A DNA stretch of 48,891 nt, taken from positions 1 through 48,891 of the forward strand of contig CALWVM010000016.1 of NCBI GenBank assembly GCA_944384985.1, given 5' to 3'. Positions 1,803 through 15,521 of this stretch are shown here, piece by piece. The notes under the pieces were generated by a model. That model saw only the letters and a program-made list of their open reading frames with translations. It did not search any database and had not been told where the DNA came from. Both the position numbers and the translations under genes were made by a program. Source of the DNA: an uncultured Clostridia bacterium (lineage in GTDB: Bacteria; Bacillota; Clostridia; Oscillospirales; Acutalibacteraceae). The first letter of the stretch is position 1. Each line of letters opens with the position of its first letter.

Positions 1803-2261
1803 ATGTTTTTAGACGGACTTGACGAACTGGACCGCAAAATTGTCCGCCTGCTGATTGCAAACGCGCGGATGCCGTATTCCGAGATCGGGCAGCAGACGGG
1901 CATCTCCCGCGTTGCCGTCAAAGCGCGCGTACAGTCGCTGGAGCGCCGGGGCGTTATCGAGGAATACACGACGGTCATCAATCCGCAGAAGATCAGCGGC
2001 GCAGTATCCTGCTATTTTGAGATCGAGACACGCCCGGACACGCTTTCGCAGGTCATCGATATCCTTATGCGCAATGAAACGATCACACAGATCTACCGTG
2101 TGACCGGGAAAAACCGCTTGCATGTGCACGCGGTCGCCGCCTCGAACGAGGAAATGGAGGCGCTGCTCACGGGAACGATCGATCGTCTGCCGGGCGTTTT
2201 GGAATGTACGACCAATTTGATCCTGTCGCGTCTCAAGGACATCAAAGGCTTGCGCCTGTAG
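1803..2261 (+). CDS. Lrp/AsnC family transcriptional regulator
   Basis: This 152-residue protein has the family's usual size and layout. An N-terminal helix-turn-helix (about residues 6-50, with LDELDRKIVRLLIANAR and the recognition segment ISRVAVKARVQSLERRGVI) is followed by an alpha/beta RAM ligand-binding and oligomerisation domain (about 68-145). Members form dimers to octamers that sense amino acids or related small molecules. The ATG at 1803 follows an AAGGGGAA ribosome binding site. It is divergent from the MATE exporter, so a plausible role is sensing a compound the pump exports. That link is inferred from position only. Confidence 0.9.
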   Translation: MFLDGLDELDRKIVRLLIANARMPYSEIGQQTGISRVAVKARVQSLERRGVIEEYTTVINPQKISGAVSCYFEIETRPDTLSQVIDILMRNETITQIYRVTGKNRLHVHAVAASNEEMEALLTGTIDRLPGVLECTTNLILSRLKDIKGLRL

Positions 2262-9922: not shown

Positions 9923-10004
9923 TTTTTGAAAATACTGCGGCATATCGCCCAAGAAAATGATTTTGCGGGCGGCGTGTCGTGTGTATTTGGAGATCGAACA
10001 GGAT

Positions 10005-11366
10005 ATGACCGAAACACTGCAAACCCCATCGATTGCATCTCAAAACAAACGGCAGCTTCTGCGGACGCTGCTCTTTTTGTCGTTGCCGACCATTGCGGAA
10101 GAGATCCTCGCCACGCTTCTGCAATATGTTGATACCGCCATGGTCGGGCAGCTCGGCGAGCAGGCAACGGCGTCGGTCAGTATCACCACCAATGTGACAT
10201 GGCTTGTCAACAGCGTTCCCGGCGCAATCGGTACTGCGGTTCTGGTGCTCATTTCCAAGGCGGCGGGCGCAGGGGATAAAGTACAGGTGCAGAAGCTTTC
10301 CCAGCAGGCGCTTTTGTTGGCGGTCGTGTCCGGCGGATTGCTCGGTGCGGTCTCCATTTTGCTCAGCCCTTTTATCCCGGTGTGGATGGGTGCGGAAGCC
10401 GCGATCTGTGCGCAGGCTTCGCGGTACTTTTTCATCATCAGCGTGCCCATGGTGTTCCGGGCGGTCAGCACTGTGCTCGGCGCCGCGCTGCGCGCCGTTC
10501 AAAACACCAAAACGCCTATGCTCATCAGCCTTGCGGCGAACGGGCTGAACATCGTGCTCAATTATGTTTTGATCTATACGTTCGCACTCGGGGTGGACGG
10601 TGCCGCCATCGCCTCGGCAGTGTCCTATGCGCTGTCGGGAATTTTGATGTTTGTCTTTTGCCGCCGCAATGCGTCTTTGCGCTGGCATTGGCGGGCGTTC
10701 TCGGTAGACTGGCGCATTCTGCGCGAATGTGCGGCGGTCGGCACGCCGGTGCTCGGCAGCAGCATGGTCTCGTGCCTGGGCTATGTGGTGTTTGCAAGCC
10801 TTGTCTCCGGCATGGGCACCACGGTGTTTGCCGCGCATTCCATCGCCGTTACGGCGGAAACCATCTTTTATGTCCCCGGTTACGGTCTGCGTTCGGCGGC
10901 ATCCACTCTGATCGGCAACGCACGCGGGGAGGGGAATGTAGCGAAACTGAAATCTGTCGCGAAACTGAGCGTGTGCTTAACGGTTGCAATCATGTGTTTA
11001 AGCGGGTTTCTGTTGTTTTTCGGTGCGGAACCGTTAATGCGGCTGTTCACACCGGTGGACGCCGTGGCGGCCTTAGGCGCGCAGATGCTGCGCCTCGTCG
11101 CGCTCTCCGAACCGTTTTACGGGTTGATGATCGTGCTGGAAGGTGTGTTTTATGGACTCGGCCGCACGCGATACGCTTTCTTTGTGGAAACGGTGGGCAT
11201 GTGGGGCGTGCGTATCCTGTTCACATTTTTGTGCGTGAACGTCTGGGGGCTCTCGCTTCGCGCCGTATGGTATTGCATGATCGCGGACAACGTCTGCAAG
11301 GCAATTTTGTTTGCTGTCCCGTTCCTGCGAAAAAGTACGCGCCGCGCGCTCTTGCAAGTGCAATAA
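10005..11366 (+). CDS. MATE family efflux transporter (second copy)
   Basis: This 453-residue membrane protein has the twelve-helix MATE layout, with LPTIAEEILATLLQYVDTAMVGQLG at the N-terminus and a related repeat after the central loop. It is only distantly similar to the pump at 290-1654, so this is not a recent duplication. I take the ATG at 10005, preceded by GGAG about 12 bases upstream, over an upstream ATG at 9957 with no ribosome binding site. It lies 82 bases after the cyclophilin-like gene with no terminator between, so readthrough is likely. Substrate unknown. Confidence 0.9.
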   Translation: MTETLQTPSIASQNKRQLLRTLLFLSLPTIAEEILATLLQYVDTAMVGQLGEQATASVSITTNVTWLVNSVPGAIGTAVLVLISKAAGAGDKVQVQKLSQQALLLAVVSGGLLGAVSILLSPFIPVWMGAEAAICAQASRYFFIISVPMVFRAVSTVLGAALRAVQNTKTPMLISLAANGLNIVLNYVLIYTFALGVDGAAIASAVSYALSGILMFVFCRRNASLRWHWRAFSVDWRILRECAAVGTPVLGSSMVSCLGYVVFASLVSGMGTTVFAAHSIAVTAETIFYVPGYGLRSAASTLIGNARGEGNVAKLKSVAKLSVCLTVAIMCLSGFLLFFGAEPLMRLFTPVDAVAALGAQMLRLVALSEPFYGLMIVLEGVFYGLGRTRYAFFVETVGMWGVRILFTFLCVNVWGLSLRAVWYCMIADNVCKAILFAVPFLRKSTRRALLQVQ

Positions 11367-11387: not shown

Positions 11388-11411
11388 AAAGCCGCCCGAT
11401 CGGGCGGCTTT
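11388..11411. terminator. Bidirectional terminator
   Basis: A perfect 24-base palindrome (AAAGCCGCCCGA then TCGGGCGGCTTT) lies between the convergent MATE gene and the leftward kinase gene. It is flanked by an A-run on the left and a T-rich stretch on the right, giving U-tracts in both directions. Confidence 0.88.
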
Positions 11412-11420
11412 CTTTCGTGT

Positions 11421-11831
11421 TTACGCCATGCTTTTCTTGACGCGCAAAATATTCTGTCCGTTTTCGCGGGTGTAGGTAATTTCATCCATGCAGTACTTCA
11501 CGATATACAGCCCCAATCCACCGGGCTCACGCGATTGTGCGTCGCTTGTGAGGTCCGGCGGCTCGGATTGCAGCGGATCGAACGGCACGCCGCGGTCAAT
11601 AAAGGTCAAAATCACCGAAAGCGGTGCCTTGGTCACTTCCACGCGCACGGCCACAGGCCCTACGTCCGGGCGGTATGCATAGCGTGCAATATTACCGAAC
11701 AGCTCGTCGATCGCAATGTCGATCTGCCGCAGCGCTTTTTTGGGGCAGTCGAGCGCTTCCAACTGTGCGTTGACAAAATCCGTTACCGCCTCAATGTTCT
11801 CAATCGTTGCGTCCAGGGTTCGTTCCTGCAT
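11421..11831 (-). CDS. RsbW-like anti-sigma factor kinase (GHKL ATPase)
   Basis: This 136-residue protein is a single histidine-kinase-like ATPase domain of the RsbW/SpoIIAB type, which phosphorylates a serine of a STAS partner and often binds a sigma factor. The N-box pair E43/N47 (DELFGNIARYAY), the G1 motif D79-R-G-V-P and the G2 motif GGLGLYIVK at 104-112 are all intact, so it should bind ATP. The ATG at 11831 follows GGAAGGAGG. It overlaps the 3' end of the phosphatase gene by 32 bases, so the two are coupled. No sigma factor gene is nearby; within the operon its likely substrate is the STAS protein at 15213-15521. Confidence 0.88.
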   Translation of the reverse strand: MQERTLDATIENIEAVTDFVNAQLEALDCPKKALRQIDIAIDELFGNIARYAYRPDVGPVAVRVEVTKAPLSVILTFIDRGVPFDPLQSEPPDLTSDAQSREPGGLGLYIVKYCMDEITYTRENGQNILRVKKSMA

Positions 11832-13608
11832 GACCGTCCTCCTTCCCGTATTGCAAAAATCGCAGACAAAGCATGGTGATGTCGTCGAACTGCGGCACGC
11901 CGTCGGCAAATGCATCCACATCCGCACGCACCTTTTCACAAAGAACTCGTACCGAGTCATCCGAATTTGCCTGCAGCAGCGCTTGCAGCCGATTGCTGCC
12001 GTACAAATGCTCAGCTGTGTCCTCAGCTTCGGTCACACCGTCCGTATACAAAAAGATTCCGTCGCCCGGCTGCAAGTCCAGCGAACTTTTTTTATACTGC
12101 GCGTTTTCCAGCCCTGCCAGAACAAAGCCGCTTTTGGCTTTCAAAAAATCAAATTGACCGTTTCTGCGCACAAGCGGCGGGTTGTGTCCCGCGTTGGCGT
12201 ATTCCAAAGCGCCTGTTTTCAGATTCAGAATTCCGAGCCATGCGGTCACAAACATACCCGCATTGTTGTTTTTACAAAGCTCGGCGTTCGCAAGCGTCAG
12301 AATCTCATCCGGCGTGTGCCCGGCTTCCGCGAGCCCCTTGATAAGCGTTTTCGAGGTCATCATGAACATCGCGGCCGGGATGCCTTTCCCCGAAACGTCT
12401 GCGATCAGGAAGGCAAGCCTGTCCTCGCCGAGCAGGAAGAAGTCATAGAAATCCCCGCCGACCTCTTTGGCGGCGTCCATGCTCGCGTAAATATCAAGCT
12501 CCGATCTGCCGGGATACGGCGGGAACACCTGCGGCAGCGCGGCGTATTGGATGACTTTGGCGTATTCGAGCTCCCGGTCGATCCTTGCGGACGCCTCGGC
12601 GATGTACCGCTTGAGCGTCGTGACCGTGGAGTTGATGTCATCCGAAAGCGAGGCGAATTCCGCGTTGCTGCGCACGTCTACGACTTCATTCAAATTGCCG
12701 CCTGTGATTTTTGCAAGCGAGCGGTTGATCTTGCGGATGTTGTTCACGATCAGGCGCTTAATGAGCACATAGATCAGCAAAAACAGCACCGCAAAAATCA
12801 GAACCTCCATGAACACGAGGATATAGACGGACATGTTCCTTGTGAAAACAGCCTCGCTTTGCGGCAGCACGGCGAGGATGCAGTAGCCCTCGCCGGTCAC
12901 ATACATGCAGTAGGACGGCACGCCGTATACGTTTGCTGAAAACCGAACGCCCTCCGGGGTTGCCGCCGTATCCAGTTGCAATCCGATCTCCGAAAGCGAC
13001 TTACCCTCGCCGCCGCTGCGGTCACTGGCAATGATCTGATCTTCGTTACAGATGATCAGCGAGCCTCCCTCGCCGACATGGCGGTTGCGCGTAGCGCCCA
13101 CGACCTGCCGGTCTATATCCTCCTGAAAATGCGCCGCGTCATAGCCGACCTGCACAAAGCCGCCGCCTGAGAGCACTACGCCCGCGTATTTGCGCCAAAC
13201 GGAAGCGTCAGAGGAGGTCGGCTGATAGCTTTGTACATATTCCCGTGCGCCGTCCAGAAGCGTCAAAAATTCCCTTGACTGCTCGCCGGAGGCCATGTCG
13301 TAATTCCAAAACGCTGCAAAATACCGCTCGATCCCGCCGATAAACCCTGCCAAGATCCCTGCGGGCGCACCGAACAGAAGACCCGCGCAAAGCGGGGCTG
13401 CGTCGCGCACGTTCATTACTGCGCCGTCTATCGGCACGCCGAATTCAGTGTTGCAGATGGCGACAATCCCGAACACAAGCCCATAAAATGCCTGCTTTAC
13501 ACCATAGGAAAGCCTGCCGAACGCAGTTTTGCGCTCCGCCTGATAAAAACAGGCAGAGCATAAAACCGGCAGCAGAGCCAAAAGAGTCAGTTGCAGATAG
13601 GCGCGCAT
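11800..13608 (-). CDS. Membrane SpoIIE-type PP2C serine phosphatase
   Basis: This 602-residue protein has three N-terminal hydrophobic helices (about 3-22, 37-53, 72-92) including a 5TM-LytS-like stretch (FGVPIDGAVMNVRDAAPLCA then GLLFGAPAGI). An extracellular sensor-like region (about 105-258), a transmembrane helix (259-284), a HAMP region (about 285-340) and a PP2C domain (about 350-592) follow. Metal ligands are visible as D386/D389 in GGDFYD, D404 in ADVSGKG and the terminal FDDITML. It would dephosphorylate the phosphoserine of the STAS partner in response to an outside signal. The 5TM domain looks cut short after residue 101 and runs straight into the sensor. The gene starts 4 bases after the symporter stop. 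Confidence 0.88.
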   Translation of the reverse strand: MRAYLQLTLLALLPVLCSACFYQAERKTAFGRLSYGVKQAFYGLVFGIVAICNTEFGVPIDGAVMNVRDAAPLCAGLLFGAPAGILAGFIGGIERYFAAFWNYDMASGEQSREFLTLLDGAREYVQSYQPTSSDASVWRKYAGVVLSGGGFVQVGYDAAHFQEDIDRQVVGATRNRHVGEGGSLIICNEDQIIASDRSGGEGKSLSEIGLQLDTAATPEGVRFSANVYGVPSYCMYVTGEGYCILAVLPQSEAVFTRNMSVYILVFMEVLIFAVLFLLIYVLIKRLIVNNIRKINRSLAKITGGNLNEVVDVRSNAEFASLSDDINSTVTTLKRYIAEASARIDRELEYAKVIQYAALPQVFPPYPGRSELDIYASMDAAKEVGGDFYDFFLLGEDRLAFLIADVSGKGIPAAMFMMTSKTLIKGLAEAGHTPDEILTLANAELCKNNNAGMFVTAWLGILNLKTGALEYANAGHNPPLVRRNGQFDFLKAKSGFVLAGLENAQYKKSSLDLQPGDGIFLYTDGVTEAEDTAEHLYGSNRLQALLQANSDDSVRVLCEKVRADVDAFADGVPQFDDITMLCLRFLQYGKEDGHAGTNPGRND

Positions 13609-13612
13609 AGCT

Positions 13613-15208
13613 TCACCCGCGCTTCCTTAAGATTTTATCGTCCAAAAGCTGCATTTTGCTCGCCTGAAGCAGCATTTCACATTGCAGGAAGCCGGTCGCG
13701 AGGAAATCAAACAGGATGTCTAAAACCAGCACGATCTCCAACGCCTCGGCGGGAATGCCGAGCTGGGAAAATATGATGGTATAGCACGTCAGCGCCCCGC
13801 CGGGAACGGGGGGAGAGGCAACGGTCAGGATCGTCACGATCAGCACCGCCATGATGATCCACGCGACCGATATTTCGACCTGATAGCCTTCCGCCATATA
13901 CAGCGCGCATACCATAAAATTGATGGCTGTGGCGGGGGCATACAGCACGATCCCCAGCGGGATGCCGAAGTTCGTCAATCGGTTACTGATGCCGAGCTCT
14001 TTTTCACAGCAACTGATGTTCGTACCGAACGCCGCAGAGGAGGAAGCGGTCGTCAAGGCGATCAAAAAGGAGGGGAAGCACTTTCGTATGAACAGCGTGG
14101 GCTTTACGCGCTTTTTCAAGCAGATATAACCGATGATCACGGCAAGGATCAGTACCGTCGCGATCGCAAAGAAAACAAGCGGTTTCCGCGCCGTTGTTAC
14201 GACCCCGAGGGAATCTGACCAAATGAGCTGCAGCAGGACGATGAAAATGAAGCAGGGTACAAGGCTGCCGACAAGCTCCATCAAAAATTGGATGATGTAA
14301 TTGATCTGCTCGATAAGTTCCGCCACGACCTTCGTCTGGTTTCCTAAAATGAGCATGACGCTTCCGACAACGGCTGCGATCAAAATGATCTGCATCATGT
14401 TCCCGTCCGTAAAGGGACTGAAAATGTTTTCGGGGGAAATGTCCAGGATCATGTTGAACACGCCGGAAAGCTGCGAGCTGTCCGTGCTGCCTGTAGAAAA
14501 GTGCAGGTTAAAGCAGGGCAGCAGCAGCGCGGCGGAAACTGCGGAAATGAGCAGCGTGAGCCCCAAAAAGCGCAGGATCATCTTTTTGCCGATGCGTCCG
14601 AGCGTCGTCGCATCCCCGATGCCGTAAATGCCCCATGCAACGGAGAGAAAGATCATCGGACCCGCAATGGTGGAGAGGATCCCTAAAAAAGTGTCATAAA
14701 GCGGCGTTAAAACGCTTTCGGTTGCGGCAATGCGCATCGCATCCGGCAAAAGAAAGCCGCCAAACCCGAAGACCAACGCGGCGGCGACCGCAATGCAAAG
14801 GCTCAAAAGCGGATTGATCTTGCGCTTTTTCAGTTTGAAAAGGACCTGGTTTTTGCCGTTGTGATAGCTGTACGCGGGGGAAAGTCCTAAATTCGCAAGC
14901 AGACGTGCGCCGAACTCGCCGAAATCCTCCTCTTGTGTCTTGTCGCTGCTTTCCAAAGGATTGCAAGCGTCCCCCGTCGTTTCCAGCAGGATGTACGGCC
15001 GCCCGAAGCGGCTGCCGGTCCGCATGGTAAACGTGCCGTCAGAACCGAAAAAATCCTGCCACTTTAAAAGCAGCGTCTCCACGGAGAGCCGCAAGCGCAG
15101 GATGCTTTTCTTGTCTGTTGCGGTTTTTTCCAAAAATTGCTGTGTTTTTTCCGATGCCGCGTCTACGGAAGCCGCAGAAAAGGGATAGACCGTTTTTTCC
15201 GTTTTCAT
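13613..15208 (-). CDS. Dicarboxylate-type symporter with N-terminal degenerate GHKL-like domain
   Basis: Residues about 131-531 form a sodium:dicarboxylate (SDF, GltP/DctA-like) symporter, with the serine-rich re-entrant loop TASSSAAFGTNISCCEKELG and the SPPVPGGALTCYT second loop. Residues 1-128 are an extra cytoplasmic domain. By eye it aligns along its length with the operon's own RsbW-like kinase, ending in FGARLLANLGLSPAYSYHNG, which parallels GLGLYIVKYCMDEITYTREN. The ATP-binding residues are not kept: no Asn in the N-box, TGDACNPL in place of DRGVPFDP, and GEFGAR for GGLGL. It may therefore bind a STAS partner without being a kinase. The ATG at 15208 lies 4 bases past the STAS stop; a TTG at 15232 is possible. 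Substrate unknown. Confidence 0.8.
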   Translation of the reverse strand: MKTEKTVYPFSAASVDAASEKTQQFLEKTATDKKSILRLRLSVETLLLKWQDFFGSDGTFTMRTGSRFGRPYILLETTGDACNPLESSDKTQEEDFGEFGARLLANLGLSPAYSYHNGKNQVLFKLKKRKINPLLSLCIAVAAALVFGFGGFLLPDAMRIAATESVLTPLYDTFLGILSTIAGPMIFLSVAWGIYGIGDATTLGRIGKKMILRFLGLTLLISAVSAALLLPCFNLHFSTGSTDSSQLSGVFNMILDISPENIFSPFTDGNMMQIILIAAVVGSVMLILGNQTKVVAELIEQINYIIQFLMELVGSLVPCFIFIVLLQLIWSDSLGVVTTARKPLVFFAIATVLILAVIIGYICLKKRVKPTLFIRKCFPSFLIALTTASSSAAFGTNISCCEKELGISNRLTNFGIPLGIVLYAPATAINFMVCALYMAEGYQVEISVAWIIMAVLIVTILTVASPPVPGGALTCYTIIFSQLGIPAEALEIVLVLDILFDFLATGFLQCEMLLQASKMQLLDDKILRKRG

Positions 15209-15212
15209 GCGT

Positions 15213-15521
15213 TTACCCGGCTTTCCGTTCAATGGTCAGGATGTCGGCAAACCCCGTCATTTCGAATACTTCCATGACCGTCTCGTTCGGATCGAGGATC
15301 ATAACGCCGCCGGTTTGCGCAAAACGCTTTTGCGCGGCAAGCAGAACACGCAGCCCTGCGGAAGATATATATTCCAAATCTGAAAAATCCAGGACCAATT
15401 CCGTAATATTCTCGGCATTGTCAAAGATCTCCGCCTCCAGCTGCGGGGCGGTTACAGTGTCAAGCCTGCCCTCCAGAGTGAGCGTGCGGCGGGCGTTTTC
15501 CTCTTGCTTTCGGATCGTCAT
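15213..15521 (-). CDS. STAS-domain anti-sigma factor antagonist
   Basis: This 102-residue single STAS domain is of the SpoIIAA/RsbV type. The phosphorylation site is visible in LEYISSAGLRVLL, where S54 aligns with the phosphorylated serine of SpoIIAA and RsbV. Such proteins bind an anti-sigma kinase when unphosphorylated and are released on phosphorylation. The ATG at 15521 follows CGGAGG at 8 bases. It is the first gene of a tightly packed operon of STAS, symporter, PP2C phosphatase and kinase, driven by the promoter at 15636-15664, so all parts of a partner switch are made together. Confidence 0.9.
   Translation of the reverse strand: MTIRKQEENARRTLTLEGRLDTVTAPQLEAEIFDNAENITELVLDFSDLEYISSAGLRVLLAAQKRFAQTGGVMILDPNETVMEVFEMTGFADILTIERKAG

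Follow-up and report, generated by a model that had tools for sequence, protein, structure and literature searches.

A four-gene partner-switching operon from an uncultured Clostridia bacterium in which a transporter with a degenerate RsbW-like domain may take the place of the sigma factor

The DNA considered here is a stretch of 48,891 nucleotides, referred to as the window, from an uncultured Clostridia bacterium of the Acutalibacteraceae (assembly GCA_944384985.1, contig CALWVM010000016.1, positions 1 to 48,891). It contains a compact operon that runs leftward on the minus strand from 15521 to 11421, with four genes that overlap or are separated by very short gaps, and which brings together the parts of a partner-switching circuit and a transporter of the SDF (sodium:dicarboxylate symporter) family. 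A reading made earlier from the sequence alone had described this set of genes, and the Pfam matches and coordinates bear it out. The features are as follows, gene coordinates being given without stop codons:

15216-15521, minus strand: STAS anti-anti-sigma-like protein, 102 amino acids (Pfam STAS 1.9e-16; NCBIfam ant_ant_sig 1.1e-20)
13616-15208, minus strand: SDF transporter, whole gene (Pfam SDF 2.3e-58)
14816-15208, minus strand: transporter residues 1-131 (the N-domain), a degenerate RsbW/SpoIIAB-like domain and putative STAS docking domain (hhalign, AlphaFold2, PDB folds)
13616-14815, minus strand: membrane part of the transporter, SDF fold with a divergent substrate site (Pfam SDF)
11803-13608, minus strand: membrane SpoIIE-type PP2C phosphatase, 602 amino acids (Pfam SpoIIE 8.7e-54, HAMP 8.4e-6, partial 5TM-5TMR_LYT 3.4e-11)
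11424-11831, minus strand: RsbW-like serine kinase, 136 amino acids, overlapping the phosphatase gene (Pfam HATPase_c_2 2.7e-22)

The kinase reading frame is open from 11960, and its start in relatives is the ATG at 11831. The putative phospho-acceptor of the STAS protein is S54, in the motif YISSAGLR; when the protein is aligned with SpoIIAA and RsbV, this serine falls on the SpoIIAA residue that we take to be the phospho-site. The acceptor serine expected from the sequence is therefore in place, with its phosphorylation predicted. Also as expected, there is no sigma factor gene in the operon or adjoining it.

The nature of the N-domain was first hinted at by BLAST, which matched transporter residues 23-120 to the HATPase portion of a relative's SpoIIE-HATPase fusion (E 5e-6, the search covering a limited number of open reading frames from the loci). 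When an alignment of 33 transporter N-domains (A4) was compared by hhalign with one of 13 module kinases (A5), the two families were matched with a probability of 98.4 and an E-value of 1e-14, over 119 columns and at 14% identity. A profile made from the kinases only picks up several transporter N-domains directly (best independent E-value, i-E, 4e-6), and Pfam HATPase_c_2 is matched by 10 of the 33 at E<=1, the best at 1.4e-6. An AlphaFold2 model of the N-domain built from four sequences has a pLDDT of 79.7 and the order beta-alpha-alpha-beta-beta-alpha-beta-beta, and its eleven best PDB matches are all SpoIIAB, RsbW or UsfX (anti-sigma-factor) entries, with E-values of 1.3e-5 to 2.1e-4 and TM-scores by query of 0.62-0.70. 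A model of the full-length transporter, also from four sequences, was set aside with a mean pLDDT of 43.9, its N-domain portion being better. By its profiles and predicted fold the N-domain is a degenerate member of the RsbW/SpoIIAB-like, GHKL alpha/beta fold. Most of the matched PDB entries show the protein in complex with a STAS protein or a sigma factor, and to judge from their titles the fold that STAS proteins bind in the SpoIIAB/SpoIIAA and RsbW/RsbV complexes is this same fold. The idea that the STAS protein docks on the transporter thereby gains a concrete candidate site; the sequence-only reading had named this part of the protein, but its degenerate kinase-like identity had gone unrecognised.

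What sets the N-domain apart from the kinases is the ATP site. In the kinases the N-box, G1 and G2 residues anticipated as intact (N47, D79, G81, G104, G105 and G107) are kept in 13/13 module proteins, the window's included, a uniformity that is partly the result of selection because A5 was limited to strong matches and leaves out three HATPase proteins that are not SDF transporters (two MATE, one ABC). The N-box Asn of the Mg site is found in 2/33 N-domains against 13/13 kinases and the G1 Asp in 0/33 against 13/13, and the glycine-rich lid is not conserved among the 33. The N-domain thus does not carry the nucleotide-binding motifs of an RsbW/SpoIIAB kinase, and we place it with a related fold and do not class it as a kinase. 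Other positions are strongly held: the N-box Glu (Glu43) and a hairpin Asn (Asn119) each in 33/33, the G1 Gly in 32/33 and a Pro following it in 27/33. We infer from this pattern that the N-domain probably retains the shape of a kinase and not its chemistry.

The company that such transporters keep was compared in stretches of up to ~7 kb on each side of a locus, with neighbour matches to hidden Markov models counted at i-E < 1e-3. STAS, SpoIIE or separate HATPase genes occur at 19/32 loci of N-domain SDF transporters (33 proteins), all three kinds being present at 9 loci, as against 0/20 loci of SDF-only transporters (Fisher 4.9e-6). One of the 19, L096, counts only through an ABC ATPase with a kinase-like domain, and the figure is 18/32 otherwise. 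Because the STAS, kinase and phosphatase profiles had been built from the same pooled loci, the STAS count was repeated with the Pfam STAS model; counted by eye, this gave 13/30 N-domain loci (23 genomes) against 0/20 control loci within ~7 kb. In 19/20 control genomes a STAS protein is encoded somewhere, the nearest on the same contig as a control locus being at least 22 kb off. L014 was dropped as a duplicate of L101, and L078 because its transporter is cut by the contig end and lacks the N-domain, though STAS and kinase genes adjoin it; L008, L054, L080 and L087 lie on short contigs (3.1 to 5.5 kb). The full-length family is sparse, a profile at E <= 1e-60 matching 17/394 genomes of the order and 15/398 of the phylum, with some of the matches SDF-only, and the N-domain fold is retained across several families of the phylum. 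At one locus (L081:6974-10544) two N-domain SDF transporters stand in tandem beside a SpoIIE-HATPase fusion.

We consider it probable, if by no great measure, that the four genes form a sigma-less partner-switching module, in which the transporter is the client and the STAS protein docks on the dead RsbW-like N-domain. In such a circuit the RsbW-like kinase would phosphorylate the STAS protein and the membrane SpoIIE-type phosphatase would dephosphorylate it; the unphosphorylated STAS protein would then leave the kinase and dock on the N-domain, which, being catalytically dead, could hold it without phosphorylating it. Docking would alter the activity of the transporter, either opening or shutting it. 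The earlier suggestion that the transporter substitutes for a sigma factor, with the STAS protein on its N-terminal domain, is strengthened by the fold of that domain, by the 19/32 against 0/20 loci and by a separate sigma-F circuit in the genome, described below; the contact, its dependence on phosphorylation and the regulation of transport are predictions from sequences and models. If they hold, partner switching would gain a new type of target, a transporter that has a dead copy of the kinase built into it; a bacterial pseudokinase-like domain would serve as a reader of phosphorylation state, and many of the STAS/SpoIIE/RsbW sets that stand as orphans in gut Clostridia would be explained. 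The N-domain is a small soluble domain and is suited to direct tests of STAS binding.

Several observations weigh against this interpretation. The window N-domain alone matched no Pfam family, and the N-domain profile run against PDB sequences gave five weak matches (best E 0.086), none of them a kinase, so that the case for homology rests on profiles and fold. The SDF-only controls were not matched for taxonomy and the loci are not phylogenetically independent, and 13/32 N-domain loci have no partner gene in the fetched stretch. Conservation of the four-gene order had been named beforehand as a test: the components do recur, but order and strand vary across loci, kinase and phosphatase are often fused, and a syntenic locus in genome G025 has the STAS protein and a phosphatase-kinase fusion with no transporter. 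Within the genus a kinase match (E <= 1e-8) is found in 10/39 genomes and a full-length transporter in only 4, leaving 6/10 without one; the module can therefore serve other clients, or none known. Among the genomes lacking the full-length transporter, a MATE-HATPase protein lies close by in G023. G001 encodes a protein of 208 residues (L137:2353-2976) with a weak N-domain-like match (1e-4) and no Pfam match, beside STAS and a SpoIIE-HATPase fusion, and G026, G033 and G034 have STAS-APH fusions, one APH domain being recognised by Pfam and two by position and length.

The window copy itself adds a further difficulty. Relative to L100, a close relative with a 97% identical transporter, it has two in-frame deletions, of which the sequence-only reading made no mention:

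13305/13306, minus strand: 654 bp (218 codons) of the phosphatase missing, with CCAAAA at both edges
13687/13688, minus strand: 12 bp (4 codons) of transmembrane helix 8 (TM8) of the transporter missing, with GAAG at the edges

The larger deletion removes most of the membrane part of the phosphatase and part of its sensor region. Undamaged copies of both genes are found in relatives, and the deletions could be genuine or could stem from errors of assembly; lacking 218 phosphatase and 4 TM8 residues, the window copy may be decaying or misassembled. The proposal that the phosphatase senses an external signal may accordingly fail for this copy, though the sensor is complete in relatives.

The membrane part raises the question of what, if anything, is transported. 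The SDF fold is secure in that the family profile aligns with PDB structures of the GltPh type. In SDF transporters the NMDGT motif of transmembrane helix 7 and an Arg in TM8 bind cations and substrate carboxylates. NMDGT is kept in 4/33 N-domain transporters against 12/20 SDF controls and the TM8 Arg in 3/33 against 13/20; the window protein has YAPAT at the NMDGT columns and Ala at that of the Arg. The description 'dicarboxylate-type symporter' consequently stands for the fold and is doubtful for the substrate class, and a plain dicarboxylate transporter was rejected as an assignment, only the fold fitting. Loss of transport is possible on these residues. It might then be that the SDF part barely transports or no longer does so and instead senses a ligand, the kinase-like domain taking up or releasing the STAS protein to an output elsewhere. 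The eroded substrate site would suit such a transceptor, as would the other STAS outputs of some modules, the STAS-APH fusions being an example. We nevertheless think it unlikely, since a sensor architecture with membrane and HAMP parts is already present in the phosphatase (in full in relatives), the N-domain is also found on members with intact NMDGT, and the window operon has no alternative output gene.

Given that N-domain and kinase share fold and family, the two might also pair with each other, making the transporter a direct client of the kinase that is released by the STAS protein, much as sigma factors are the classical clients of such kinases. This seems to us improbable. RsbW-like kinases are dimers and SDF transporters trimers, which makes exchange of dimer partners awkward, and kinase and phosphatase form a single fused protein at several loci.

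A sigma factor as the client of the module was considered and rejected. The single Sigma70_r4 match in the window (1809-1928, 26.5 bits) lies inside a 152-residue open reading frame that we read as a putative Lrp/AsnC-type regulator. The genome has two STAS proteins, the second of which belongs to a SpoIIAA/SpoIIAB/sigma-F operon on another contig, so that the single recognised sigma-F circuit has a STAS protein and kinase of its own away from the window operon. With 14 Sigma70_r4 matches in the genome and partner-switch modules without a transporter in the same genus, the module could in principle control a sigma factor encoded elsewhere while the transporter is merely co-transcribed. We give this little credence, as co-transcription would leave unexplained both the kinase-like domain on the transporter and the absence of partners at the 20 control loci. 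That the N-domain is a relic with some other job, such as a role in trimer stability or small-ligand binding, in a neighbourhood that is historical, would agree with the eroded ATP motifs and the 13 partnerless loci but is very improbable when Glu43 and Asn119 are invariant, the fold is kept in several families of the phylum and a second, unrelated transporter family has a like domain at like loci.

Partner switching is a textbook circuit with known targets that are mostly sigma factors, together with a few signalling enzymes. With RsbV/RsbW/RsbU and SpoIIAA/SpoIIAB/SpoIIE the window operon shares a STAS substrate, a GHKL serine kinase and a PP2C phosphatase; it differs in having no sigma factor and an additional, degenerate RsbW-like domain on the transporter. 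With GltPh and DctA of the SDF/DAACS family the transporter has the membrane fold in common, but adds the N-terminal domain and lacks NMDGT and the TM8 Arg. A precedent for a non-sigma target is SiaABC-SiaD of Pseudomonas aeruginosa, in which SiaC activates the diguanylate cyclase SiaD (PMC7647112, PMC8457831); the target in that system is an enzyme, and in the window operon it would be a transporter that bears an RsbW-like domain. Among the NCBIfam models the phosphatase scores best against SiaA, far below the cut-off, and no diguanylate cyclase target of SiaABCD type is among the four operon genes. In Escherichia coli the STAS-bearing DauA acts on the SDF-family transporter DctA through membrane domains, and the STAS domain on its own shows no binding to DctA (PMC5703999); DauA-DctA has no phosphorylation switch. 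The SLC26/SulP transporters carry a fused STAS domain that serves in transporter control (PMC8256260), whereas the STAS protein of the window is separate and it is the transporter that bears the kinase-like partner fold. The sections consulted of one account describe STAS phosphatases in transcription control only (PMC11418112), and searches of open-licence papers brought up no account in which a partner switch acts on a transporter.

Like domains are found on other transporters. Pfam HATPase_c_2 matches the C-terminus of MATE proteins at L133, L083 and L085, and an ABC transporter ATPase (L096:12563-13720), whose gene lies ~4 kb away from that of an N-domain SDF transporter, ends in a HATPase_c_2-like domain (Pfam 0.0032, below the cut-off). 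A search with one MATE fusion gave 15 matches in 13/295 genomes of the order, the kinase profile matching the C-terminus of 15/15, and STAS, SpoIIE or another kinase gene occurs at 9/16 MATE-fusion loci (the 15 matches and the query), a figure that stands without a MATE-only control set. The MATE domains need not be dead, because the N-box Asn is often kept, as judged by eye. It is conceivable, though we lean slightly to doubt, that unrelated Bacillota transporters have repeatedly acquired RsbW-like domains (at the N-terminus of SDF proteins and the C-terminus of MATE proteins and an ABC ATPase) as receptors for STAS proteins under phospho-switch control. Such STAS-gated transporters would make up a general class, in which partner switching adjusts membrane transport on a scale of seconds and does not act through transcription.

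MATE proteins with a C-terminal RsbW-like domain directly adjoin STAS, SpoIIE and kinase genes at L175:7058-8815, L178:7041-8798, L179:7003-8757 and L186:6940-8742. Proteins of ~530 residues that begin with a STAS domain and end with a kinase domain were seen at L173, L175, L177, L178 and L182, and fusions of STAS with an APH-type phosphotransferase domain stand beside like modules at L073:5833-6957, L033:11078-12238 and L134:8740-9903.

Two minor features flank the operon; both are consensus matches only, of a kind whose counts are near those in shuffled sequence:

15664-15636, minus strand: promoter-like site, 11/12 matches
11388-11411, listed on the plus strand: terminator-like stem of 10 pairs

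The window transporter is 97% identical to a protein of contig CAKMIX010000004.1 (uncultured Clostridia), 75% to one of Candidatus Fimenecus excrementigallinarum and, over the best segment, 42% to one of Eubacterium sp. RGIG4416. Convergent with the operon is a plain MATE gene of 469 codons (window 9957-11366), and such a gene adjoins the module in G025 (L132) too, where the transporter is missing. A further HATPase_c_2 protein of the same genome (L153:2723-3145) lies beside a ferredoxin-domain gene that is read as hydrogenase-like.

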